Positions 5,103 through 29,985 of a DNA stretch of 33,354 nucleotides are shown here, in pieces. The translations under genes and the position numbers were made by a program. The notes beneath the pieces were generated by a model. That model made no database searches. It was not told the origin of the DNA and was given only the letters and a program-made list of their open reading frames with translations. The DNA is from Oscillospiraceae bacterium (GTDB taxonomy: Bacteria; Bacillota; Clostridia; Oscillospirales; SIG519): assembly GCA_015067255.1 (NCBI GenBank), contig SVMS01000022.1, positions 1 to 33,354 on the forward strand, given 5' to 3'. Position 1 is the first letter of the stretch. Each line of letters begins with the position of its first letter.

Positions 5103-6146
5103 ATGACAAAGCTTTATCCTTTGAAAATGAAACCGATTTACAAAGAAATTTTATGGGGCGGGCAAAGCTTAGCCTCTTTATATGAGCGCAAATTACCCTT
5201 TGAAAAAACTGCTGAAAGCTGGGAAGCATCTGCTCACAGAAACGGTTGCTCAACTGTTGAAGCGGGAGCGCTTTCGGGAGAAAATCTCGTACAGCTTGCA
5301 AAAGAATATAAAGAGGACTTTTTAGGCAGTCTTTGTGATGTGCAGGAGGGCTTTCCTTTGCTTTTGAAGCTTATAGATGCCTGCGACTTTTTATCTGTTC
5401 AGGTGCATCCTGACGATGAGCTTGCAAAGCTTGACAATGACAAGGGCAAAACTGAGATGTGGATAGTTCTGTGCGCAAAAGAAAATGCCGGTCTTTATAT
5501 GGGCTTTAACCGTGATATCACCAAAGAGGAATACAAAAAAAGAATTTCCGACAACACCTTGAAAGAGGTTTTGAATTTTGTTCCTGCAAAGGCGGGGGAC
5601 GTTTTTTATATTGCGGCAGGAACTGTTCACGCAATAGGAGCAGGTCTTGTTATTGCAGAGATACAGCAAAATTCCGACACCACCTACAGAGTATACGATT
5701 GGGGACGTGTAGGTAAGGACAATAAGCCAAGAGAGCTTCATATAGACAAGGCTCTGGAGGCTTCAACTCTTGAAAAATATTCTCCAAAGGCTCAGATTGC
5801 TTGTATAATGTCAGCTTCGACTAAAATCAGTTATTATCCTTGCTGTAAATATTTCGGTGCAGTCAAGCAAGAGATAGCTGAAGAATATAATGATTATACA
5901 AACAAAAAAAGCTTCCATATTCTTTTTTGCTCCGAGGGTGAGGGTGAAATTAAAGCAGATGGAAATTCTCACAGCATAAAGGCGGGAGAAACCTATATTA
6001 TTCCTGCCTGTGTTGAGCGCTATCAAATTAAAGGAAAACTAACAGTTTATAAATTTTTTGTACCTGATTTTAACGAAGATTATCTTCTGCCTCTTGAAAA
6101 AGCAGGAGTTTCTCAAGCTGTTATTGACAGTCTTAACAATATATAA
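5103..6146 (+). CDS. manA: Mannose-6-phosphate isomerase, class I
   Basis: Zinc enzyme that interconverts mannose-6-phosphate and fructose-6-phosphate. The protein begins KLYPLKMKPIYKEILWGG, the usual opening of the short Firmicute type. The metal site is visible in SVQVHPDD and GKTEMW, with a further His in AAGTVHAIGAGL and the catalytic-site segment IAEIQQNSDTTYRVYDWGR. The C-terminal cupin lies about 250-347. The ATG at 5103 is nine bases after GAAGGA; the ATG at 5094 abuts that site and is less likely. First gene of the operon, with recJ starting 18 bases downstream. Confidence 0.92.
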   Translation: MTKLYPLKMKPIYKEILWGGQSLASLYERKLPFEKTAESWEASAHRNGCSTVEAGALSGENLVQLAKEYKEDFLGSLCDVQEGFPLLLKLIDACDFLSVQVHPDDELAKLDNDKGKTEMWIVLCAKENAGLYMGFNRDITKEEYKKRISDNTLKEVLNFVPAKAGDVFYIAAGTVHAIGAGLVIAEIQQNSDTTYRVYDWGRVGKDNKPRELHIDKALEASTLEKYSPKAQIACIMSASTKISYYPCCKYFGAVKQEIAEEYNDYTNKKSFHILFCSEGEGEIKADGNSHSIKAGETYIIPACVERYQIKGKLTVYKFFVPDFNEDYLLPLEKAGVSQAVIDSLNNI

Positions 6147-6164
6147 TTGAAAGGAAGTAGTAGC

Positions 6165-7862
6165 TTGCCTTTTTGGGAAATAAAAGAACAATCTGAGCAA
6201 AAGGTTAATGAAATAGTAAAGCTTTCGGGACTTCCTGAAATTGCTGTCAGAGTGCTTATAAATAACGGACTTACAGACTTGGAAAAGATAAAAAACTTTT
6301 TGAATATTAAAGCGGAGAATATGCACAGCCCTTTTCTTTTTAAGGATATGGAAAAAGCGGTTGCAATAATTAAAGCTGCAATATTCAAAAATGAAAAAAT
6401 AGCTATTTACGGGGACTACGACGTTGACGGAGTAACAAGTGTTGCTCTTTTATATCTTTATTTGTCGTCTAAGGGCGTAGAGGTCAGCTTTTATATTCCG
6501 GACCGAAGCGATGAGGGCTACGGAATAAATAAGTCTGCTTTGGATAAGCTTAAAAATGACGGAGTGGACCTTATAATAACTGTTGACTCGGGAATTACCG
6601 CCTGTGAAGAAATAGCTTATGCTTATGAAATCGGCATGCAGGTTATTGTTACAGACCATCACGAATGTAAAACACAGGTGCCTGTATGTGAAGCTGTTAT
6701 CAATCCTAAGGTAGATGAAGGCTATCCTTTTTCGGGACTTGCAGGAGTAGGTGTTGCCTTTAAGCTTGTATGCGCTTTAGAGGGTGAGGACAATACAACT
6801 GCAATTTTAAACAATTACGGAGATATAATTGCTTTGGGCACTGTGGCAGACGTTATGCCTCTTGTTGATGAAAACCGTATTATCACTTCAATCGGAGTTT
6901 CAAAGCTTAATAAACGTAACGGAATTTTAGGAATAAGAGCTCTTTTATATGCTGCGGGAATTGAAAAGTCAAAAAAAGTAAATACATCTACCATAAGCTT
7001 TGTTTTGTCCCCCAGAATAAATGCGGCAGGAAGAATGGGCTCTGCTCAAAAGGCTCTTGAACTTTTCCTTGCAGATACGCCTGATTCTTCTCTTGAAATT
7101 GCTCAGCATCTTTGCCGTGAAAATACTGCCCGTCAGGAAACGGAAAATGTAATATATACTCAGGCTATTGAGCAGTTTAAAAGCACATATGACCCCGACA
7201 AAGATTTGGTATGTATTTTGCACGGGGAAAACTGGCATCAGGGAATAATAGGAATTGCGGCTTCTAAAATAGCAGACCGTTTCAACGTCCCTACAATTCT
7301 TATTTCAACTCAGGACGGAATAGGAAAGGGCTCGGGAAGAAGTATAAAGGGCTTTAATCTTTATGAGGCATTGGAAAGCTGTAAGGACTGTCTTATTAAA
7401 TTCGGAGGACACGAGCTTGCGGCAGGAATGAGTATTTGTGTTGATAAAATACCCGAATTTAAAGAGAAAATCAACCGATATGCTTCTGAAAATATAGATA
7501 AAAGCCTTTTAAATCCTGTTATATGTGCTGAATGCCGTGCCGATTTGAAAGATATAAATATTGAAACTATAAATACCCTTAAGCGTTTTGAGCCCTACGG
7601 GGTGGCAAATCCCGACCCTGTTTTTTATCTTGACAATGTTGAAATTACTTATACATCAGCTGTGTCTGAGGGAAAACATACAAAATTTTCGGCTTTCTCT
7701 GAAAACGGTAATATTCCTGCTATTTTCTTTAATCAGAAATTTTCGGAATTTTCCTTTAAAGCAGGAGATAAAATAGATATTATGTGCCGTTTTGACATAA
7801 ACGAATTTAAAGGCGCAAAAACACCTCAGATGTTAGTAAAGGCTGTGCGTGCTCATCAATAA
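6165..7862 (+). CDS. recJ: Single-stranded-DNA-specific 5'-3' exonuclease RecJ
   Basis: DHH-family nuclease used in recombination and mismatch and base excision repair. Counting from the TTG at 6165, the DHH motifs are GDYDVDGVTS (Asp84, Asp86 and Asp88) and TDHHEC (164-166), with ITVDSGI between them. The DHHA1 domain shows HQGIIGIAASKIADRF, GKGSGRSIKGFNL and GGHELAAGM. A C-terminal OB-like domain completes a 565-residue protein, the usual length for the compact RecJ. TTG 6165 is preferred since AAGGAAG at 6151-6157 lies seven bases upstream; the in-frame TTG at 6147 is upstream of that site. It sits between manA and rel with short gaps on both sides. Confidence 0.94.
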   Translation: MPFWEIKEQSEQKVNEIVKLSGLPEIAVRVLINNGLTDLEKIKNFLNIKAENMHSPFLFKDMEKAVAIIKAAIFKNEKIAIYGDYDVDGVTSVALLYLYLSSKGVEVSFYIPDRSDEGYGINKSALDKLKNDGVDLIITVDSGITACEEIAYAYEIGMQVIVTDHHECKTQVPVCEAVINPKVDEGYPFSGLAGVGVAFKLVCALEGEDNTTAILNNYGDIIALGTVADVMPLVDENRIITSIGVSKLNKRNGILGIRALLYAAGIEKSKKVNTSTISFVLSPRINAAGRMGSAQKALELFLADTPDSSLEIAQHLCRENTARQETENVIYTQAIEQFKSTYDPDKDLVCILHGENWHQGIIGIAASKIADRFNVPTILISTQDGIGKGSGRSIKGFNLYEALESCKDCLIKFGGHELAAGMSICVDKIPEFKEKINRYASENIDKSLLNPVICAECRADLKDINIETINTLKRFEPYGVANPDPVFYLDNVEITYTSAVSEGKHTKFSAFSENGNIPAIFFNQKFSEFSFKAGDKIDIMCRFDINEFKGAKTPQMLVKAVRAHQ

Positions 7863-19831: not shown

Positions 19832-22800
19832 ATGGAATTCAATACTTTTGAAGCCATTAAAATAGGACTTGCATCTCCGGAGACTATCAGACGTTGGTCG
19901 TCGGGCGAGGTAAAAAAGCCTGAAACTATAAACTACAGAACCTTAAAGCCTGAAAGAGACGGTCTTTTCTGCGAAAGAATTTTCGGACCGACAAAGGACT
20001 GGGAATGTCATTGCGGTAAATATAAAAGACTTCGTTATAAGGGCAAAATCTGTGAACGCTGCGGAGTTGAGGTTACAAGATCCAAAGTAAGACGTGAGAG
20101 AATGGGACATATAGAGCTCGCAACCCCCGTTTCTCATATATGGTACTTTAAGGGAACTCCTTCAAGACTCGGTCTTGTATTGGATTTATCCCCCAGAATA
20201 CTTGAAAAGGTGCTTTATTTCGCACTTTATATAGTAATCGATCCCGGTGATGTAAGAGGTATCCGTGAAAAAGATACTCTTACAGAATCCGAGTACAGAG
20301 ATTTAAGAGAAAAATACGGCGACGGCTTTGAAGCTGAAATGGGCGCTTCTGCAATTAAGAAGCTTCTGTTGAAGATTAACAAGGAAGAGCTTCGTGACCA
20401 GCTTCTTGAAGAGCTTGAAACTGCTTCCGGTCAAAAAAGAGGCAGAATAGTTAAAAGACTTGATGCTATTGAGTCCTTTATCACAAGCGGAAACGAGCTT
20501 TCCTGGATGATTTTAGACGTGCTTCCTGTTATCCCGCCTGAAATTCGTCCTATGGTACAGCTTGACGGCGGACGTTTTGCATCCAGTGACCTTAATGACC
20601 TTTACCGCCGTGTTATCAACAGAAATAACAGACTTAAGAGATTATTGGAATTAAATGCTCCCGACATTATCGTCAGAAACGAGAAGAGAATGCTACAGGA
20701 GGCTGTCGATGCTCTTATTGACAACGGCAGACGTTCCCGTGCCGTAGGCGGCCCTAACAACAGAGCATTGAAATCTCTTTCCGATATGCTTAAGGGTAAG
20801 CAGGGCCGTTTCAGACAGAACCTTCTCGGTAAACGTGTTGACTATTCAGGACGTTCCGTTATCGTCGTAGGTCCTGACCTTAAGATTTATCAGTGCGGTC
20901 TTCCTAAGGAAATGGCTATTGAGCTGTTCAAACCCTTCGTTATGAAGCGTCTTGAGGAAATGGGTATTGCTAAAAATATCAAGAGCGCAAAGAAAATGGT
21001 TGAGCGTATGCAGGGCGAGGTTTGGGACGCTTTGGAAGAGGTTATCAAGGAGCATCCCGTTCTTCTTAACCGTGCGCCTACACTTCACAGACTTGGTATT
21101 CAAGCATTCGAGCCTGTATTGGTTGAAGGTCGTGCATTAAGACTTCATCCGTTGGTATGTACAGCTTACAACGCTGACTTCGACGGTGACCAGATGGCTG
21201 TTCACGTTCCTCTTTCCGCTGCAGCACAGGCAGAGGCTCGTTTCCTTATGCTCTCTGCTAACAACCTGCTTAAGCCTCAGGATGGAAAGCCTGTTACCGT
21301 TCCTACACAGGATATGGTACTCGGTGCATACTATCTTACAATGATTAAGGATAAGGATAAGCCCACAGAGCAAAGACCTTACTTTAAGGATATCGACGAG
21401 GCAAAGCTTGCATACTATGCAAAAACAGTTACTCTTCACGAGCCTGTAAGACTTCGTGTTGATAAAACTGATGACAACGGCGAAAAAACCGGCGAGCATA
21501 TAATGATAGATACCTCTATCGGCAGAATTATCTTCAATGAGGTAATTCCTCAGAATCTCGGCTTTATGGACAGAACAAATCCTGACCAGAAGTACAAGCT
21601 TGAGGTTGACCAGATTGTTACCAAAAAAGTTTTGGGACAGATTATCGACCGTTGTATCAAGGCTAACGGCGGCGCAGAAACTGCTGACACACTTGATAAA
21701 ATCAAGAGCATTTGCTATCAGTTCTCCACAAAGGGCGCTATTACCGTTTCCGTTTCCGATATGACAATTCCGCCTAAGAAATATGAATATATTGAACAGG
21801 CAGAAGAAAAAATTGAAGAAATTACAGAAAACTATAAGATGGGTCTTATGACTGATGACGAGCGTTACTCTGCTGTTATTGACCAGTGGGAGAAAACAAC
21901 AAAGCTCGTTACAGATGAGCTTGAAAAAGGACTTGACGAATTCAATCCTATCTATATGATGGCTAATTCAGGAGCTCGTGGTAGCATGAGCCAGATCAGA
22001 CAGCTTGCCGGAATGAGAGGACTTATGGCAAACACCTCCGGTAAAGCAATCGAAATTCCTATTCGTTCAAACTTCCGTGAAGGTCTTAATATCCTTGAAT
22101 TCTTTATTTCTTCCCGTGGTGCGCGTAAAGGTCTTGCCGATACTGCGTTAAGAACTGCGGACTCAGGTTACCTTACAAGACGTCTTGTTGACGTTTCTCA
22201 GGACGTTATTATCCGTGAGGACGATTGCGGAACTGATGAAGGCTTGATGGTAAGTGAGATTCCCAACGTTGAAAAGCTTACTGACAGACTTTTGGGCCGC
22301 TTCGCTGCGAAACCCATAGTTGACGAAAACGGAGAAGTTATCGTTGGAACAGATGTTCCTATGACCGAAAAAGATGCTAAGGCAATAATGGATGCAGGCA
22401 TAAAGAGAGTTGAAATCCGTTCAGTTCTTAAATGCCGTTGCAAATACGGTGTCTGCGCTAAGTGCTACGGTAAAAACCTTGCGGCAAACGAGGTTGTACG
22501 CACAGGTGAGGCTGTCGGCATAATTGCGGCACAGTCAATCGGTGAGCCCGGTACACAGCTTACAATGAGAACCTTCCATACAGGCGGTGTTGCCGGTAAG
22601 GACGTATCGGATATTACACAGGGTCTTCCCCGTGTCGAAGAGCTTTTCGAAGCAAGAAAGCCCAAGGCTCTTGCTGTTTTGGCTGAAATTTCAGGACGTG
22701 TTACCTTTGATGAAATCAAAAAGATTAAAAACGTTATCGTTACAAATGATGAAGGCGAGAGCGTTGCTCATCCTATCATATTTAGCTTAAGACTTAAAGA

Positions 22801-23410
22801 AAAAATCGAAATGGCTGAGAAAAACGGAACAGAGTGCTGGGTAGAAAAGGGCGAAGAGCTTACACAAGGCTCTAAGAACCCCCGTGATATACTCAGAATT
22901 TTGGGACCCGATGCCGTTCAGGAATACTTTATCGAAGAAGTACAGCGTGTATATAGATTACAGGGTGTTGATATCAACGATAAGCATATTGAAGTTATTG
23001 TTCGTCAGATGATGAAGAAATACAAGGTGCTTGATCCCGGAAGCGCACAGGCTGTTGACGGATTGCAAATCGTTGAAGGCGCTCAGATTGATAAGTATTA
23101 TTATCTCAAGGCTAAGGAAGACATTGAGAGAAGACGTGCAGAGGGAGAAGATGTTAAGGATATCGTAGCAGAGCCCGAGCTCCTCGGTATCACCAAGGCT
23201 TCTCTTGCAACGGATAGCTTCCTTTCAGCCGCATCCTTCCAAGAGACCACAAAGGTTCTTACAGATGCCGCTATCAGAGGTAAGACTGATCCCCTTATCG
23301 GACTTAAAGAAAACGTTATTATCGGTAAGCTTATCCCCGCAGGTACAGGACTTCCCAGATACAGAAACGTTGAAATTGTTGAAAACAATACAAACAATAA
23401 CAACCAATAA
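19832..23410 (+). CDS. rpoC: DNA-directed RNA polymerase subunit beta'
   Basis: Catalytic beta' subunit, 1,192 residues, normal for Firmicutes. The N-terminal zinc site is [20 protein letters not shown] (59-78). The double-psi barrel carries the magnesium-binding [12 protein letters not shown]. The bridge-helix and trigger-loop regions ([21 protein letters not shown] and [13 protein letters not shown]) are clear, and the second zinc site is [20 protein letters not shown] precedes the ATG, 36 bases after rpoB. It ends with a strong terminator at 23489. No ribosomal protein S12/S7 or fusA genes follow, unlike the common bacterial order. Confidence 0.98.
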
Positions 23411-23488
23411 TTTTACAGACTGTCGAAAAAGGCACAGACCGCAGAAAAAGAAAAAATCATAAAGGTTTGAAGCTAATTTCACAAATGA

Positions 23489-23525
23489 TATAGGAAAGGA
23501 GTTTTTCTCTTTTCCTATATTTTTG
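23489..23525 (+). terminator. rpoBC operon terminator
   Basis: Thirteen-bp stem TATAGGAAAGGAG/CTCTTTTCCTATA (one G-U) with a five-base T loop, followed by TTTTTG. Strong intrinsic terminator 79 bases after the rpoC stop. Confidence 0.9.
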
Positions 23526-23579
23526 TTTTAAGGAAAATTCCGTATAAGAATACGTAATTTAAGTAAAATTTTTCTGCTT

Positions 23580-23725
23580 TCCGCCAATCCGCTCTCTAAC
23601 GTACCACCGTACGCCGACGAGAACGGATTGACGAAATCTGCACTCTTTTTGGACAGTCTTGCCATGGTGTCGAAAACCTTTCGACACCCTGAAAGCTCGC
23701 TTCAATTTGAAGCGAGCTTTTTTGC
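23580..23725 (+). repeat. Hairpin-rich intergenic element of unknown nature
   Basis: Three consecutive stem-loops fill this gene-free stretch. CAATCCG (23585-23591) pairs with CGGATTG (23624-23630) around an inner CGTAC/GTACG stem. GGTGTCGAAA pairs with TTTCGACACC (23666-23688). The last is a terminator-like hairpin, AAAGCTCGCTTC with GAAGCGAGCTTT, plus a T-run. Composition is more GC-rich than the flanks. It may be a small structured RNA with its own terminator, or a copy of a dispersed palindromic repeat; copy number in the genome would decide. Short reading frames crossing it on both strands look like shadows of the stems. Confidence 0.45.
23692..23723 (+). terminator. Intrinsic terminator at the end of the hairpin-rich element
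   Basis: AAAGCTCGCTTC and GAAGCGAGCTTT form a 12-bp stem with a five-base AT loop, followed by further T (six in a row counting the stem end). No coding gene lies directly upstream, which suggests an RNA product or read-through protection. Confidence 0.7.
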
Positions 23726-23781
23726 GCCTGCTGAAGATTGGAAATTTATACTTGATAATACAGTATAATTGTGGTAAACTA

Positions 23782-23954
23782 ATAGTTGCCAAACTAATTA
23801 AATATTTTATAACAAGCAAAAAAGCCAAGGGGTTAGTATATCTTTTGGTTAAGTTTTATTTGAGGTACCTAACGATATGAATTTGATAAAAATGCAAATT
23901 CCACAATGTTAGGTGCTTATTGTGCTTGTTATATTGTATTAGTTTGGCGACTAT
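23782..23954 (+). ncRNA. Candidate structured RNA: long nested inverted repeat before the LRR gene
   Basis: The outer stem pairs ATAGTTGCCAAACTAAT (23782-23798) with ATTAGTTTGGCGACTAT (23938-23954), 17 bp with one G-U. After an internal loop it continues as TATAACAAGCA (23808-23818) with TGCTTGTTATA (23923-23933). Inside are two hairpins: one at 23823-23850, and one pairing AGGTACCTAAC (23863-23873) with GTTAGGTGCTT (23908-23918), topped by GAATTTG/CAAATTC. In addition AAAAATGCAAATTCC (23888-23902) can pair with GGAGTTTGCATTTTT (23956-23970), a 15-bp possible pseudoknot. A TATAAT at 23764-23769 could be its -10. A terminator follows at 23972. It could be an attenuation leader, a free small RNA, or a small palindromic mobile element. 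Confidence 0.45.
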
Positions 23955-23971
23955 CGGAGTTTGCATTTTTT

Positions 23972-24002
23972 GTGCGTCTGCTTCGGTAGGCGCACTTTTT
24001 TT
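23972..24002 (+). terminator. UUCG-tetraloop terminator just upstream of the LRR gene
   Basis: GTGCGTCTGC-TTCG-GTAGGCGCAC: a ten-bp stem with two G-U pairs and a stable UUCG tetraloop, then seven T. It ends 29 bases before the ATG at 24032, between the structured region and the ribosome site TTGGAGGG. It is either the end of a small RNA or an attenuator for the downstream gene. Confidence 0.88.
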
Positions 24003-24031
24003 ATCTAAAATTATTTTGGAGGGTTTTTAGT

Positions 24032-27000
24032 ATGAGTATTTTCAAAAACATCAAGCACTGTATTTCTCTTTTGCTGTGTGTTGTATTGCTTGCAACACTT
24101 ATGCTTATAGGTATATTTTCCGTCAGTGCGGAAAACGAAGGATATTATACCTATACAGTATCAAACGGAAAGGCAACTATAACAGGTTGCGATGAATCGA
24201 TAAGCGGAGATGTTACTATCCCCTCAACCTTAGGCGGTTATCCTGTTACAAGAATAGGAGATTATGCATTTTATAATTGCGGAAGTCTTACAAGTATAGC
24301 TATCCCCGATAGTGTTACAAGTATAGGTGAAGGTGCATTTTCTTATTGCGGAAGTCTTGAAAGTATAACCATTCCTGACGGTGTTACAAGTATAAGTGAT
24401 TTTGCGTTTCATTTTTGCTCTATCCTTACAAGTATAACAATTCCCGACAGTGTTACAAGTATAGGGGAACAAGCATTTGGTGGGACAAGACTTACAAGCA
24501 TAACAATCCCCGAAAGCGTTACAAGTATAGGGCGTGCTGCGTTTAGTAGTTGCAGAAGTCTTAGGAGCATAACAATTCCCGAAAGCGTTACAAGTATAGG
24601 TGATTATGCATTTAGCAATTGCACGTGTTTAACATCAGTTTTTTATAAAGGAACGACTCAGCAAAAAAATTATATGGAGATAAGTCTTAAGAATAATGAT
24701 ATTTTTATAAATACTATTTGGCATTATAAAGTGGAAAATGCTATTTTTGATAATGAAAATTGCATTTATTGTCCCGAATGTAATGATTATTTTTTGTCTA
24801 ACGGAAAATCTGTTGCAACAAAATATTATTCGTATTTTTTTACAGACGGAGAAATAACTATATACTATGTCGATCCGTCAATATCGGGGGATGCAACAAT
24901 CCCCTCAACATTGGACGGTTATCCTGTTACAGCTATAGGAGAATATGCGTTTTATAATTGCGATAGCCTTACAAGTATAACAATACCCGAAAGCGTTACA
25001 AGTATAGGTGATTCTGCGTTTTCTGCTTGCTCAAATCTTACAAGCATAACAATCCCTGACAGTGTTACAAGTATAGGTGATTTTGCGTTTAGATATTGCG
25101 AAAGTCTTGAAAGTATAACTATTCCTGATAGTGTTACAGAGATAGGTGATTCTGCGTTTGCTGCTTGTTCAAGTCTTGAAAATGTATATATAGAGAATAT
25201 AGTTGCTTGGTGTAACATTGATTTTTATAATGAGTACTCAAACCCGTTATATTTCGCTGATTATTTATATCTTAACGGAGAATTAATAACAAAACTTGTT
25301 ATTCCGAATGACGTTACTACCATACCTACATATGCTTTTTCGTGCAAAAATATTACGAGCATAACAGTTTCCGACAGTGTTACAAGCATAGAAAAATATG
25401 CTTTTTATGATTGTTCAAATCTTGAAAGCATAACCTTGCCGTTTGTCGGCGCTTCACAGGGAGAAACATCTAATACGCATTTTGGTTATATTTTTGGTGC
25501 ATCAATTGACTCTTGGATGGACTCATTTATTCCAAAATCACTAAAAAAAGTTATATTGACTGATGAATGTGTAATTATAAACGGCGGTGCATTTTCTAAT
25601 TGCGAAAATCTTGAAAATATAATAATTTCTGACAGTGTTACAAGTATAGGCGAGTATGCGTTTTTTAATTGCTCAAATCTTAAAAGTGTAACAATCGGTA
25701 ACGGCGTTACAAGTATAGGCGAGTATGCGTTTTATTATTGCGAAAGTCTTGAAAGTATAACCTTGCCGTTTGTCGGTGCTTCACAGGGAGGAACATCTAA
25801 TACGCATTTTGGTTATATTTTCGGCGCATCAAGTTATTCTTATAATGATGATTATGTACCGTCATCACTTAAAAATGTTATATTGACCGATAAATGTACA
25901 ACTATAGATGATAATGCGTTTAGATATTGCGAAAGTCTTGAAAGTATAATAATCGGTAACCATGTAACAAGTATAGGCGAGTATGCGTTTTTTAATTGCT
26001 CAAATCTTAAAAGTGTAACAATCGGTAACGGCGTTACAAGTATAAGCTCTTCTGCATTTTATGATTGCATAAGTCTAAAAAGTATAAATGTAAATTCAAA
26101 TAATACCTCGTATACTTCCAACGATGGAGTTTTATTTAACAAAGATAAAAGTCAAATAATCTGCTATTCTGCAGGTAAAACAGCATCATCATATACAATC
26201 CCTGACAGTGTTACAAGTATAGGTGATTTTGCGTTTAGATATTGCGAAAGTCTTGAAAGTATAACTATTCCTGATAGTGTTACGGAGATAGGTGATTCTG
26301 CGTTTGCTGCTTGCTCAAGTCTTGAAAATGTATATATAGAGGATATAGCTGCTTGGTGTAATATTGATTTTTATAATGAGCACTCAAATCCGTTGAATTA
26401 TGCTAATTATTTATATCTTAACGGTGAATTGGTAACAAGCCTTCTTATTCCTGACAGTGTTACAAGTATAGGCGATTATACTTTTTATAGTTGTTCAAGT
26501 CTTGAAAGTATAACAATCCCCGATAGTATAACAACTATAGGTGAGGAAGCGTTTTATTATTGCATAGGTCTTACAAGCATAACTATTCCTGATAGTGTTA
26601 CAGAGATAGGGGATTATGCATTTTCTGCTTGCTTTGGACTTACAAGAGTAACAATCGGTAATAGTGTTAAAAGTATAGGAAATTGGGCGTTTTTTAATTG
26701 CTCCAGACTCACAAGCATAACAATACCAAGCAGTGTTACAAGTATAGGTAATGGGACATTTTACTGGTGCTACGAACTTACAAGTGCAAATATTAATAAT
26801 GGCGTTATAAGTATAGGTGATATGGCTTTTTATGGCAGCGGGCTTACGGATATAACAATACCAAATAGTGTTATAAGTATAGGTGAAGCAGCTTTTCTTG
26901 ATTGCGATGCTCTTACAAAAATAATAATAGGAAACGGTACTACAAGTATAGGTTATTATGCGTTTTCTGGTTGCCATGTATTGAAAGATGTATTCTATTC

Positions 27001-27268
27001 GGGAACAGAGGAAGAATGGGGAAATATTTCGATAGATGAAGGCAACAACTATCTAACAAATGCTAATATCCATTACAACTACACAGAAAATGAAGCTGTT
27101 GAGGGCGACACTAACGGCGACGGAGAGGTAAATGTACTTGATGCTATCAGTATGAGAAACGGCTTATTAGGAAAAGAAGCTGAAAGCGAAATGTCAGATA
27201 TGAACGGAGATTCAGTTTTTGATATTTATGATTTGCTGATACTCAAGGCTTTGATTTTTAAAAAGTAA
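24032..27268 (+). CDS. Secreted BspA-like leucine-rich-repeat protein with C-terminal dockerin-like module
   Basis: A 1,078-residue exported protein. A signal peptide covers residues 1-33 (hydrophobic LLLCVVLLATLMLIGIF, cleavage likely after VSA). From about 40 to 1010 it is made of 23-residue LRR_5 repeats of the type IPDSVTSIGDYAFYNCSSLTS, the BspA/Treponema pallidum class used in surface adhesion and carbohydrate or host contact. Residues 1024-1078 hold two calcium-loop motifs, DTNGDGEVNVLD and DMNGDSVFDIYD, the duplicated pattern of a type I dockerin, suggesting attachment to a cohesin scaffold. Repeat units are nearly identical at DNA level in places (see 25051/26197 and 25421/25748). 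The ribosome site TTGGAGGG precedes the ATG; a structured region and terminator precede that. Binding partner unknown. Confidence 0.88.
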   Translation: MSIFKNIKHCISLLLCVVLLATLMLIGIFSVSAENEGYYTYTVSNGKATITGCDESISGDVTIPSTLGGYPVTRIGDYAFYNCGSLTSIAIPDSVTSIGEGAFSYCGSLESITIPDGVTSISDFAFHFCSILTSITIPDSVTSIGEQAFGGTRLTSITIPESVTSIGRAAFSSCRSLRSITIPESVTSIGDYAFSNCTCLTSVFYKGTTQQKNYMEISLKNNDIFINTIWHYKVENAIFDNENCIYCPECNDYFLSNGKSVATKYYSYFFTDGEITIYYVDPSISGDATIPSTLDGYPVTAIGEYAFYNCDSLTSITIPESVTSIGDSAFSACSNLTSITIPDSVTSIGDFAFRYCESLESITIPDSVTEIGDSAFAACSSLENVYIENIVAWCNIDFYNEYSNPLYFADYLYLNGELITKLVIPNDVTTIPTYAFSCKNITSITVSDSVTSIEKYAFYDCSNLESITLPFVGASQGETSNTHFGYIFGASIDSWMDSFIPKSLKKVILTDECVIINGGAFSNCENLENIIISDSVTSIGEYAFFNCSNLKSVTIGNGVTSIGEYAFYYCESLESITLPFVGASQGGTSNTHFGYIFGASSYSYNDDYVPSSLKNVILTDKCTTIDDNAFRYCESLESIIIGNHVTSIGEYAFFNCSNLKSVTIGNGVTSISSSAFYDCISLKSINVNSNNTSYTSNDGVLFNKDKSQIICYSAGKTASSYTIPDSVTSIGDFAFRYCESLESITIPDSVTEIGDSAFAACSSLENVYIEDIAAWCNIDFYNEHSNPLNYANYLYLNGELVTSLLIPDSVTSIGDYTFYSCSSLESITIPDSITTIGEEAFYYCIGLTSITIPDSVTEIGDYAFSACFGLTRVTIGNSVKSIGNWAFFNCSRLTSITIPSSVTSIGNGTFYWCYELTSANINNGVISIGDMAFYGSGLTDITIPNSVISIGEAAFLDCDALTKIIIGNGTTSIGYYAFSGCHVLKDVFYSGTEEEWGNISIDEGNNYLTNANIHYNYTENEAVEGDTNGDGEVNVLDAISMRNGLLGKEAESEMSDMNGDSVFDIYDLLILKALIFKK
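25051..25285 (+). repeat. Long intragenic duplication, copy 1
   Basis: About 235 bases that recur at 26197-26431, exactly 1,146 bases (382 codons) later. The first ~85 bases are identical and only scattered changes follow. The segment encodes SIGDFAFRYCESLES through NVYIENIVAWCNIDFYN and YLYLNGEL, a non-LRR insertion unit embedded between repeats. The match indicates recent in-frame duplication or gene conversion. Confidence 0.85.
25421..25505 (+). repeat. Short intragenic duplication, copy 1
   Basis: Encodes ITLPFVGASQGETSNTHFGY and IFGAS; a near-identical copy lies at 25748-25832, 327 bases (109 codons) downstream, with only a few base changes. This insert module within the LRR array separates canonical repeats. 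Confidence 0.8.
25748..25832 (+). repeat. Short intragenic duplication, copy 2
   Basis: Second copy of the module at 25421-25505, in the same frame, followed by SSYSYNDDYVPSSLKN, which parallels SIDSWMDSFIPKSLKK after copy 1. Confidence 0.8.
26197..26431 (+). repeat. Long intragenic duplication, copy 2
   Basis: Second copy of 25051-25285. Differences are mostly single bases, such as TTACGGAG for TTACAGAG and GAGGATATAG for GAGAATATAG, increasing toward the 3' end. Confidence 0.85.
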
Positions 27269-27340
27269 AATATATACTCACTTAAGCGTTTTAATAAACT
27301 ACAATCATTATAAATAAAAATTCTTTAATTTAATCTTTAA

Positions 27341-27379
27341 AATGACCTCTAAGGCTTTAAGCTTTAAAGGTCATTTTTT
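27341..27379 (+). terminator. Terminator after the LRR gene
   Basis: Arms AATGACCT (27341-27348) and AGGTCATT (27368-27375) enclose a partly self-complementary AAGGCTTTAAGCTTTA loop, with TTTTTTG at the 3' side. Confidence 0.8.
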
Positions 27380-27405
27380 GTGAGTTTTATTTTAAAGCGC
27401 AAAAA

Positions 27406-27413
27406 CATATACT
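27406..27413 (+). promoter_or_regulatory. Sporulation-type -10 element candidate before cwlD
   Basis: CATATACT, resembling the CATA-N3-T -10 of mother-cell sigma factors (sigma-E/K), lies 22 bases before the cwlD start, with an AT-rich tttattt around the -35 position. The same octamer occurs before the second amidase gene. No sigma-A promoter was found in this gap. Weak evidence on its own. Confidence 0.35.
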
Positions 27414-27434
27414 TATCTGAAAGGGTGCGGTTTA

Positions 27435-28124
27435 ATGATAGTGTTTGTAAATAAAAAATCAATTATGGGGTTTGCTGTTTGTCTTGTTTTGGTTGTTGTA
27501 CTTTGTTTTTCTATCCCTAATGTTATAAGCACTTTTTCCTCTGCTTCCAATTCCTTTACTGTTATAATTGATGCGGGACACGGGGGAATGGACGGAGGCT
27601 GTGTTGCAAAGGACGGAACGGTTGAAAAGGACTTAAACCTTGACATTTCTTTAAAGCTGAGAGAGCTTTTTGAGATATCGGGAATAAATACCGTTATGAC
27701 AAGAAAAGACGGCGGCTCTACCTACGACAGTGAAAAATTCAACAAAAATGCCGATATAAAAGCACGCATAGAGCTTATAAATTCATATTCAAATTGTGTT
27801 GTTTTGAGTATTCATATGAACAATTTTTCAGACAGCCGTTACAACGGCTCGCAGATTTTTTATTCAAACGATGATTTCAGTAAAGCACTTTCGGAAACCA
27901 TAAGAGCTGATATCGTTTCCTTTTTACAGCCTGACAATACTCGGAAAATAAAGCCGATACCCTCTTCGGTTTTACTCTTTAAAAGAATAAAAAATCCGGC
28001 AATTCTTTGCGAATGCGGATTTTTCTCAAATGAAGCGGAGCTTGAAAAGCTCAAAAGCGATTCTTACCGTACACAGCTTGCCCTTGTGATATACAATGCC
28101 TTTATGAAATACATTTCACAATGA
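27435..28124 (+). CDS. cwlD: N-acetylmuramoyl-L-alanine amidase CwlD (Amidase_3)
   Basis: Zinc amidase that removes stem peptides during muramic-delta-lactam formation in the spore cortex. The 229-residue protein has an N-terminal membrane/signal segment (residues 9-30) and then the catalytic domain: His49 in DAGHGGMDGG, Glu64 in GTVEKDLNLD, His127 in LSIHMNN and the catalytic Glu193 in LCECGFFSN. Size, single transmembrane start and lack of binding domains match CwlD of spore formers. The other possibility is a general cell-separation amidase. AAAGGG lies about ten bases before the ATG. Its terminator hairpin is shared with rpsU, which faces it. Confidence 0.85.
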   Translation: MIVFVNKKSIMGFAVCLVLVVVLCFSIPNVISTFSSASNSFTVIIDAGHGGMDGGCVAKDGTVEKDLNLDISLKLRELFEISGINTVMTRKDGGSTYDSEKFNKNADIKARIELINSYSNCVVLSIHMNNFSDSRYNGSQIFYSNDDFSKALSETIRADIVSFLQPDNTRKIKPIPSSVLLFKRIKNPAILCECGFFSNEAELEKLKSDSYRTQLALVIYNAFMKYISQ

Positions 28125-28126
28125 AA

Positions 28127-28154
28127 AAACCGCCTTCATTTTTGAAGGCGGTTT
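28127..28154. terminator. Bidirectional terminator between cwlD and rpsU
   Basis: Perfect 11-bp stem AAACCGCCTTC/GAAGGCGGTTT with a six-base loop. A-run on the left and T at the end of the right arm serve both convergent genes. Confidence 0.85.
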
Positions 28155-28165
28155 AGATGTACTTT

Positions 28166-28342
28166 TTACTTAAACTTTCTCTTACGTGCAGCTTCAGACT
28201 TCTTCTTACGCTTTACGCTGGGCTTTTCATAATGCTCTCTCTTGCGGAGTTCGGAAAGCACACCTGATTTTGCACATGAACGCTTAAAACGACGTAGTGC
28301 ATTATCAAGAGACTCATTATCCTTTAGATGAACTTCTGACAT
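28166..28342 (-). CDS. rpsU: Small ribosomal subunit protein bS21
   Basis: A 58-residue, strongly basic protein with the bS21 pattern: [20 protein letters not shown], then [27 protein letters not shown]. It helps the 30S platform in initiation. The ATG at 28342 follows GGGGGGAGGG by a few bases; the longer frame from 28360 would read through that ribosome site. Monocistronic with a perfect promoter at 28389-28417. Divergent from proS. Confidence 0.96.
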
Positions 28343-28388
28343 TTCTTTCCCTCCCCCCAAAATACGGGTTGTACATTGTTGCCATTAT

Positions 28389-28417
28389 ATTATATATTTT
28401 TTATTCACCAATGTCAA
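28389..28417 (-). promoter_or_regulatory. Sigma-A promoter of rpsU
   Basis: On the minus strand TTGACA (28417-28412), a 17-base spacer and TATAAT (28394-28389), a perfect consensus promoter about 40 bases before the rpsU ribosome site. Confidence 0.85.
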
Positions 28418-28477
28418 GCATAAAATTCAAAAAACTTGGTTGTATGAAACAAAAATATTTTTAAAGCATTAAAACAG

Positions 28478-28507
28478 TTGACAAACACTATGGTTTTGCA
28501 CTACAAT
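28478..28507 (+). promoter_or_regulatory. Promoter of proS
   Basis: TTGACA at 28478-28483, an 18-base spacer and TACAAT at 28502-28507. The leader is only about 35-40 bases, too short for a T-box. Confidence 0.75.
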
Positions 28508-28551
28508 ATATATTGATATGATATATAATAATAAAAAGGATTGAATAAATT

Positions 28552-29985
28552 ATGGCAAAGGAAAAAATGGTAAAAGAAATTACATCTATGGATGAAGATT
28601 TTGCGAAGTGGTATACAGATGTAGTTAAAAAGGCAGATTTAGTTGAATATTCCGGTGTACGCGGATTTATGATTATAAGGCCTTACGGATATGCTATTTG
28701 GGAGAATATCCAGAATATACTTGACGGTATGTTCAAAAAAACAGGGCACAAAAACGTTTATATGCCATTACTTATTCCGGAAAGCCTTTTGAATAAGGAA
28801 AAAGAACACGTTGAAGGCTTTGCACCCGAGGTTGCTTGGGTTACAATGGGCGGAAGCGAAAAGCTTACAGAAAGACTTTGCGTACGTCCTACCTCTGAAA
28901 CTCTTTTCTGTGAGCATTATAAGGATATTATCACTTCTTATCGTGATTTACCTAAGCTTTACAATCAGTGGTGTTCAGTTGTACGTTGGGAGAAAACAAC
29001 AAGACCTTTCTTGCGTTCAAGAGAATTTCTATGGCAAGAGGGCCATACAATGCACGCAACTGCTGAGGATGCACAGGAAGAAACAATCAGAATGTTAAAC
29101 GTATATGCGGATTTTGTAGAGAATTATCTTGCAATTCCCGTTGTATGCGGTCAGAAAACAGATAAAGAGAAGTTTGCAGGCGCAAATGCTACTTATACAA
29201 TTGAAGCACTTATGCATGACGGAAAGGCTTTACAGTCAGGTACCTCTCACAATTTTGGTGACGGCTTTGCAAGAGCTTTTGATATTAAATATTCCGATAA
29301 GAATAACACCTTACAATACTGTCATCAGACCTCTTGGGGAATGTCCACAAGAATTATCGGCGCAATTATAATGACTCACGGTGACGATAACGGTCTTGTT
29401 TTGCCCCCTGCAATAGCTCCTACTCAGGTTATGGTAATTCCTGTTGCTATGCATAAGGGCGGAGTGCTTGAAAAGGCTGAGGAAATTTGCGAGAGACTTA
29501 AGAAAATTTGCAGAGCTGATATTGATGCAAGTGAGGAAAGCCCCGGCTGGAAGTTTGCACAGTATGAAATGACAGGCGTGCCTATCCGTCTTGAAATCGG
29601 ACCCCGTGATATTGAAAATAACAGCTGTGTTTTGGCAAGACGTGATACAGGCGAAAAAATCAGCGTTTCTCTTGATGAGTTAGAGGAGAAAATCCCTGCA
29701 CTTTTAGACGATATTACAAAAACTCTTTACAATAAAGCTCTTGAAAGACGAGAGAAAATGACAAATGTTGCTTTCACTTTAGATGAAATGATTGAAACAG
29801 CAGCAACAAAGCCGGGCTTTATCAAAGCTATGTGGTGCGGAGATTTGGAATGTGAAGAGAAGCTCAAAGAGGTTGCAGACGTATCCTCACGTTGTATTCC
29901 CTTCAATGAAGAAGCAATTTCCGATACCTGTGTTTGCTGCGGCAAAAAGGCAACAAAGCTTGTATACTGGGGAAAAGCGTATTAA
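28552..29985 (+). CDS. proS: Prolyl-tRNA synthetase, archaeal/eukaryote type
   Basis: Class II aminoacyl-tRNA synthetase that charges tRNA-Pro. At 477 residues it lacks the roughly 180-residue editing insertion of bacterial-type ProRS. Visible class II motifs are motif 1 near [15 protein letters not shown], motif 2 in [17 protein letters not shown], and motif 3 in [13 protein letters not shown], preceded by [21 protein letters not shown]. The C-terminal zinc-binding domain has four cysteines (WCGDLEC and CVCCGKK), and the protein ends in a conserved Tyr. This type is common in clostridia and other lineages and is thought to have been acquired from archaea or eukaryotes. AAAAGGA lies before the ATG, with a housekeeping promoter upstream. 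Confidence 0.96.

Follow-up and report, generated by a model that had tools for sequence, protein, structure and literature searches.

A putative bistable leader RNA with a built-in terminator, found in many copies ahead of accessory genes of Clostridia

Positions 23782-24002 of the window (the whole stretch of DNA analysed, 33,354 nucleotides of an Oscillospiraceae genome assembly) are one member of a large RNA family, and we propose, with a probability of roughly 0.6, that this family, confined to Clostridia, represents a new class of cis-acting leader RNAs that serve as bistable attenuators of transcription, of the riboswitch type. All conclusions on the family are drawn from comparative sequence analysis. 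Comparison among relatives shows the predicted promoter, helices, mutual exclusion, terminator and position of the terminator beside the gene. Units of ∼150-220 nt carry these elements in one order, namely a sigma-70 promoter, a long outer stem (P1), an inner stem (P2), an apical hairpin (P3), a long-range pseudoknot pairing (PK) and a UUCG terminator. The copy in the window is laid out as follows.

23752-23757, + strand: -35 hexamer TTGATA; same layout in 182 related units
23775-23780, + strand: -10 hexamer TAAACT, with TG ahead and a 17-nt spacer from the -35; promoter layout of relatives
23782-23805, + strand: 5' strand of the P1 outer stem, outer 15+4 bp (paired 23782-23796 and 23802-23805); from folding and P1 covariation
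23808-23818, + strand: 5' strand of the second P1 segment, 11 bp; pairs with 23923-23933
23823-23850, + strand: side hairpin P1a at the junction, 11 bp; long-type members only
23863-23874, + strand: 5' strand of the inner stem P2; P2 covaries, z -61
23879-23901, + strand: apical hairpin P3, GAAUUUG/CAAAUUC, 7 bp; mutually exclusive with PK
23888-23902, + strand: 5' strand of PK, AAAAAUGCAAAUUCC, called strand b; 10 of 15 pairs changed on both sides
23907-23918, + strand: 3' strand of P2; pairs with 23863-23874
23923-23933, + strand: 3' strand of the second P1 segment; pairs with 23808-23818
23936-23954, + strand: 3' strand of the P1 outer stem, ending in UUUGGCGACUAU; pairs with 23782-23796 and 23802-23805
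23956-23970, + strand: 3' strand of PK, GGAGUUUGCAUUUUU, called strand d; 1 nt 5' of the terminator
23972-24002, + strand: intrinsic terminator with a 10-bp stem (23972-23995), UUCG loop and seven U (23996-24002); covaries at 10 of 10 pairs
24018-24023, + strand: Shine-Dalgarno sequence GGAGGG, read from the sequence
24032-27268, + strand: gene for a secreted BspA-type LRR protein with a C-terminal dockerin, 1078 aa; ATG at 24032

The 268-nt stretch that holds the leader folds to -92.1 kcal/mol, compared with -53 ± 4.1 kcal/mol for 200 dinucleotide shuffles, none of which folds as stably (z -9.6). The two-part outer stem of the original prediction is borne out, with segments of 15+4 bp and 11 bp that enclose two hairpins (23823-23850 and 23863-23918), and the UUCG terminator with seven T, the ribosome site GGAGGG and the ATG at 24032 that it named were all found in place. 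Absent from that account was a 15-bp pairing that joins the apical loop region (23888-23902) to the sequence just before the terminator (23956-23970) and competes with the apical hairpin P3 (23879-23901). A further complementarity was seen in the window copy between the P3 loop TTTGATAAAAA (23882-23892) and the terminator tail TTTTTATCTAA (23998-24008). At 23823-23858, a region of the long type, the side hairpin is followed by a conserved U-rich stretch that resembles a weak internal terminator or pause site. The surrounding DNA (19832-29985) contains rpoC, the leader with its LRR-dockerin gene, an amidase gene and, further on, a gene for prolyl-tRNA synthetase; strong hairpins with T-tails at 23487-23521 and 23663-23720, between rpoC and the leader unit, are probably the rpoBC terminators.

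The TATAAT at 23764, earlier suggested as a possible transcript start signal, is probably not the -10 element, a better promoter being formed by TTGATA (23752-23757) and, after 17 nt, a TG-preceded TAAACT (23775-23780). Among 182 units a strong sigma-70 promoter is present in 86 per cent, against 8 per cent of shuffled controls, and the end of its -10 hexamer typically lies 4-6 nt 5' of the base of P1. Given this fixed distance the RNA would start at P1, and we infer a +1 for the window transcript at about 23785-23788. The units fall into two types, long (mostly 190-230 nt, with the side hairpin, and including the window copy) and short (about 150-170 nt), and in 168 of 174 of them 0-1 nt separate the U-run of PK from the terminator.

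Conservation of the helices was assessed by comparing the pairing of strands within a unit with that of strands exchanged between units, over 177 distinct units, a test that is independent of any structure-fitted alignment and leaves relatedness uncorrected. Own strands paired better than swapped strands in P1 (-21.2 versus -11.3 kcal/mol, z -40), P2 (-20.9 versus -9.1 kcal/mol, z -61), PK (-17.5 versus -15.7 kcal/mol, z -18) and P3 (-5.0 versus -4.0 kcal/mol, z -12; n = 177 throughout), and three control pairings gave z values of -3.0, 0.5 and -1.8. Changes on both sides were counted at 20 of the 25 pairs of PK and terminator in a covariance-model alignment of 105 matches, which is fitted to the model and includes 17 sequences that built it. 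In this alignment 96.4 per cent of the PK and terminator cells are paired, compared with 85.7 per cent in shuffles and 41-65 per cent after the strands are slid. Covariation extends to all 10 pairs of the terminator stem, and both-side changes to 10 of the 15 pairs of PK. At the first four positions of PK the pair is A:U in virtually all sequences while neighbouring pairs covary freely, and this invariance suggests that pairing is not the sole reason for which the bases are maintained. The sense strand has 1116 G.U pairs versus 36 A.C mismatches, an excess on one strand that points to selection of the structure in the transcript and not in the DNA. Compensatory changes and one-sided G.U pairs are thus both present, as looked for in a structured RNA, and the original proposal of an undescribed structured leader with its own terminator is supported by this covariation together with the diverged copies and the lack of an Rfam match.

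These same changes bear on the suggestion that the sequence is a mobile palindrome at the DNA level (a MITE-like element or a site of recombination) whose promoter and terminator are incidental. The units are indeed palindromic, multi-copy and placed ahead of unrelated genes, some are duplicated in tandem (L100, L083 and L114) and copies occur in phage contigs. However, the stems keep their pairing by compensatory change with G.U on one strand only, what most copies within a genome have in common is just a conserved core of about 65 nt whose limits are not sharp, the window copy is not flanked by direct repeats, and a search for near-identical copies with target duplications found diverged copies instead, so that a mobile element is very improbable.

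The evidence for switching comes from 39 short members (alignment A6), in which four strands are involved; in one of them (L069) these are a GUAUGUAUUUUUA, b UAAAAAUACAUACUC, c ACAUACCU and d GGAGUUAUGUAUUUUU. By the own-versus-swapped comparison, covariation is found for a:b (z -9.7), b:d (z -9.5) and a:c (z -14.6), each lower than in any of 200 shuffles, and is absent in the short members for a:d, b:c and c:d (z -0.4, -0.3 and 0.8). In each of the 39, a:b and a:c have between four and nine residues of a in common (median 7), and the energy gap between the two states is -1.6 ± 3.6 kcal/mol, pseudoknot penalties not included. Since these strands are shared and the three pairings covary, two states are open to the RNA, P3 (a:b) on the one hand and a:c together with PK (b:d) on the other. 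Three covarying pairings, in two states of nearly equal predicted energy, are what a bistable regulatory RNA should show. The two conserved folds exclude each other, as in a riboswitch, and the RNA therefore probably switches the gene that follows on and off. Among long members b is the one shared strand, between P3 and PK, and for the window copy PK was computed to be ∼10 kcal/mol better than P3 before penalties, so this copy itself may not be balanced.

The placement of the terminator ties the RNA to a gene. In 141 of 195 units (72 per cent) the U-tract is followed, at no more than 60 nt, by a ribosome-binding site (RBS) and the start of an ORF of 40 aa or longer, compared with 9 of 168 on the divergent side, 319 of 4000 random points and 12 of 147 other terminators in the same loci (5-8 per cent); about 28 per cent of units have no ORF within 60 nt. 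So short a distance would hardly accommodate a second promoter, and expression of the gene probably depends on read-through. A terminator between promoter and gene, with scant space for another promoter, is the arrangement of an attenuator. To this extent the attenuation layout first proposed stands, whereas the antiterminator of a classical attenuator was sought and not found.

The main rival is that each unit is a free-standing sRNA of ∼150-220 nt that acts in trans, in which case the terminator would be its normal 3' end, the gene would receive constant low read-through, and switching between P3 and PK would expose or hide a target-binding segment. It would account for the promoter and terminator that every unit possesses, tandem arrays included (L113), for the copies that have no adjacent gene and for the numbers, up to 14 per genome; but in 72 per cent of units the RBS and start codon follow the terminator closely, with little room for another promoter, which is unexpected for an sRNA gene. 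We consider such an sRNA unlikely, and the free small RNA raised at the outset would apply chiefly to the minority of copies without an adjacent gene. Tandem units each carry their own promoter and terminator (L113:401-917, L112, L100, L083 and L114), which would be unneeded in a plain leader and counts against the attenuator. Truncated 5' ends of the downstream gene are left between the tandem copies of L100 and L083, and in L114 a 2.5-kb unit is duplicated together with a secreted-protein gene.

How an attenuator of this kind would produce its output is a guess, since no conserved antiterminator was detected when upstream segments were scanned against both arms of the terminator, apart from the overlap of the terminator's own 5' arm. 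Modest values near the 3' strand of P1 (z -4 to -6) are not trusted because subtypes share sequence, and strand d paired against the terminator arms gave z values of 0.7 and -1.9. Pairing of b or d with the RBS region gave no signal in a test for which the RBS itself is too conserved. A conserved leader peptide through GAAUUUGAUAAAAAUGC was rejected, as the length of the A-run varies and the frame is broken. With no antiterminator, the control step would have to be a direct action of PK on the terminator or the polymerase.

In the attenuator that we propose, RNA polymerase would start at the base of P1 and make a structured RNA of 150-220 nt that ends in the intrinsic terminator, and the RBS and gene would be reached when the terminator is read through. 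During transcription the conserved strand b (AAAAANGC...CUC/UUCC) would pair first with the upstream strand a as hairpin P3; once d emerged, b could shift to it and form PK directly against the terminator, and in short members a, freed from b, would pair with c. A signal, which might be a small molecule, an ion or a protein, would bias P3 versus PK and so alter termination. Strand d reaches to the foot of the terminator hairpin, which makes end-on stacking of PK and terminator possible, and PK may act on the terminator by such stacking. It is a doubtful but more far-reaching proposition that this is a new riboswitch-like output, in which a PK abutting the terminator controls termination by coaxial stacking, possibly with a U.A-U triple helix, and serves as a shared switch for accessory surface and small-protein genes of many Clostridia. 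In the triple-helix version, which is speculation, the U-tail of the terminator would run parallel to the A-strand of the invariant A4:U4 segment of PK. The U-rich stretch after the side hairpin of long-type units could also provide a third triplex strand. A role of the invariant U-run of PK as a pausing signal, equally speculative, would be simpler than a triplex.

The switch may also be set by a protein (an antiterminator or an RNA-binding regulator) or by the speed of transcription and not by a small molecule, which would be a sub-case of the attenuator. The long variable stems and the mixed regulon fit recognition of a compact core, and the genes have no small-molecule theme, but no partner gene was identified, and we hold this as a possibility of tentative standing.

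The range of the family was examined with a covariance model of the 3' core of the RNA (R1), in which PK was entered as a nested helix. Matches were found in 72 of 197 genomes sampled from the order (E <= 0.01) and in 92 of 391 genomes sampled from the class Clostridia (E <= 1e-6). Outside Clostridia there was none in a phylum sample of 299 genomes, in which the genome of the window itself was the sole match, indicating a low false-positive rate; plasmids also gave no match. A genome can hold up to 14 copies (12-14 in the densest of six that were more fully examined), and copy counts in the large searches are lower bounds because only 9-18 candidates per genome were scored. Units on genome contigs were picked by an exact pattern and are thus biased to the long type. 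By BLASTN, copies occur in 8 of the 59 genomes searched, the window's own included, where a second copy precedes another LRR gene and a third, which has diverged, a lipoprotein gene. Nearly all named records with a family member are Clostridia and Oscillospiraceae MAGs from animal guts, and one is a named isolate, Pumilibacter intestinalis CLA-AA-M10, whose copy (L182) spans about 6130-6352 with its gene at 6372.

The search of Rfam covariance models (Rfam 15) that had been recommended gave no match to the window at the gathering score, and in 20 diverse loci the matches were to tRNA and 5S only. Permissive scans returned unrelated families far below gathering, which is noise, and the Rfam models of 6S RNA, SRP RNA, tmRNA and T-box did not match the window. 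The fetched flanks of 4 of these 20 loci contain tRNA genes (L071, L082, L087 and L096). Searches of the open-access literature brought up no description of the family, although the RNA could be among the unnamed candidates of supplementary lists.

The secreted LRR-dockerin gene named in the original prediction does follow the window copy, while across the family the genes are not limited to LRR or dockerin proteins. The 186 downstream proteins form 128 clusters, the largest of which comprises 19 BspA-type LRR proteins, window included. Also recurrent are AMP-binding enzymes, stalk-domain proteins, AbrB-like proteins that carry a zinc motif, zinc-ribbon membrane proteins, cell-wall enzymes of the M23 and CHAP kinds, SLH proteins and numerous small unknown proteins; lipoproteins occur as well. 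No uniting pathway or function was found among them, and a common signal, such as a second messenger, stress or growth state, would suit this set better than feedback by a single metabolite. A defence or toxin-antitoxin theme was rejected, PADLOC giving scattered weak matches only.

Type III toxin-antitoxin systems (ToxIN) resemble the units in their order of promoter, structured RNA, terminator and gene and in being sometimes tandem. The many small unknown proteins downstream would also suit an RNA that is the antitoxin of such a pair, but the 186 proteins fall into 128 unrelated clusters that include LRR adhesins, M23 peptidases and AMP-binding enzymes. Among the 25 of 63 downstream families listed there is no ToxN/AbiQ-family toxin. 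The new RNA, at 150-220 nt, also differs from ToxIN in having no short repeat and no single toxin family behind it, and an antitoxin is hardly credible. Some copies are phage-borne. In three IMG/VR contigs (L235-L237) the unit and a gene for a zinc-ribbon membrane protein lie next to phage packaging-like genes, and a faecal phage contig (MT835503.1, L271:420-533) has a copy near its start. The former arrangement recalls phage morons, which are autonomous accessory cassettes; unlike the new RNA, most copies of which are in bacterial genome contigs, morons share no common RNA.

Among known regulators, c-di-GMP riboswitches occur in several copies per genome before surface proteins and other diverse genes. 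The new RNA is likewise multi-copy and ahead of surface proteins and diverse genes, although by Rfam scan the c-di-GMP aptamer is absent. The preQ1, fluoride and SAM-II riboswitches attenuate transcription and have pseudoknots. Like these, the new RNA places a 5' leader with mutually exclusive strands and a long-range pseudoknot, an intrinsic terminator, an RBS and a gene in order; it differs in lacking an Rfam match, in that its switching strands do not overlap the terminator arms, and in genes without a metabolic theme. The preQ1 riboswitch has been reviewed (PMC11625349). An intergenic search of 50 genomes yielded orphan riboswitch and leader candidates, one with a pseudoknot to the terminator loop that may block the terminator (PMC11109978), and a survey of human microbiomes gave 3161 candidates (PMC8040213). 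As far as their main texts go, these candidates resemble the present family in comparative evidence, position upstream of genes and terminator stems; term searches of those main texts did not bring up the motif itself, and overlap with unnamed supplementary candidates is possible. As far as Rfam 15 and these main texts go, the family appears to be previously unlisted, and it is widespread in gut bacteria.

For a class that had gone unrecognised, an RNA that occurs in roughly one in four of the Clostridia genomes sampled, in up to 14 copies each, and is missing from Rfam is unusually large. The arrangement of four strands leads to a direct, testable prediction, and the absence of an antiterminator together with a PK that lies 0-1 nt from the terminator points to a non-textbook step in the control of termination. 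The genes that follow it (LRR adhesin-like proteins, lipoproteins, cell-wall enzymes and small unknown proteins, some of them phage-borne) suggest that gut and rumen bacteria may use a shared signal for accessory genes.
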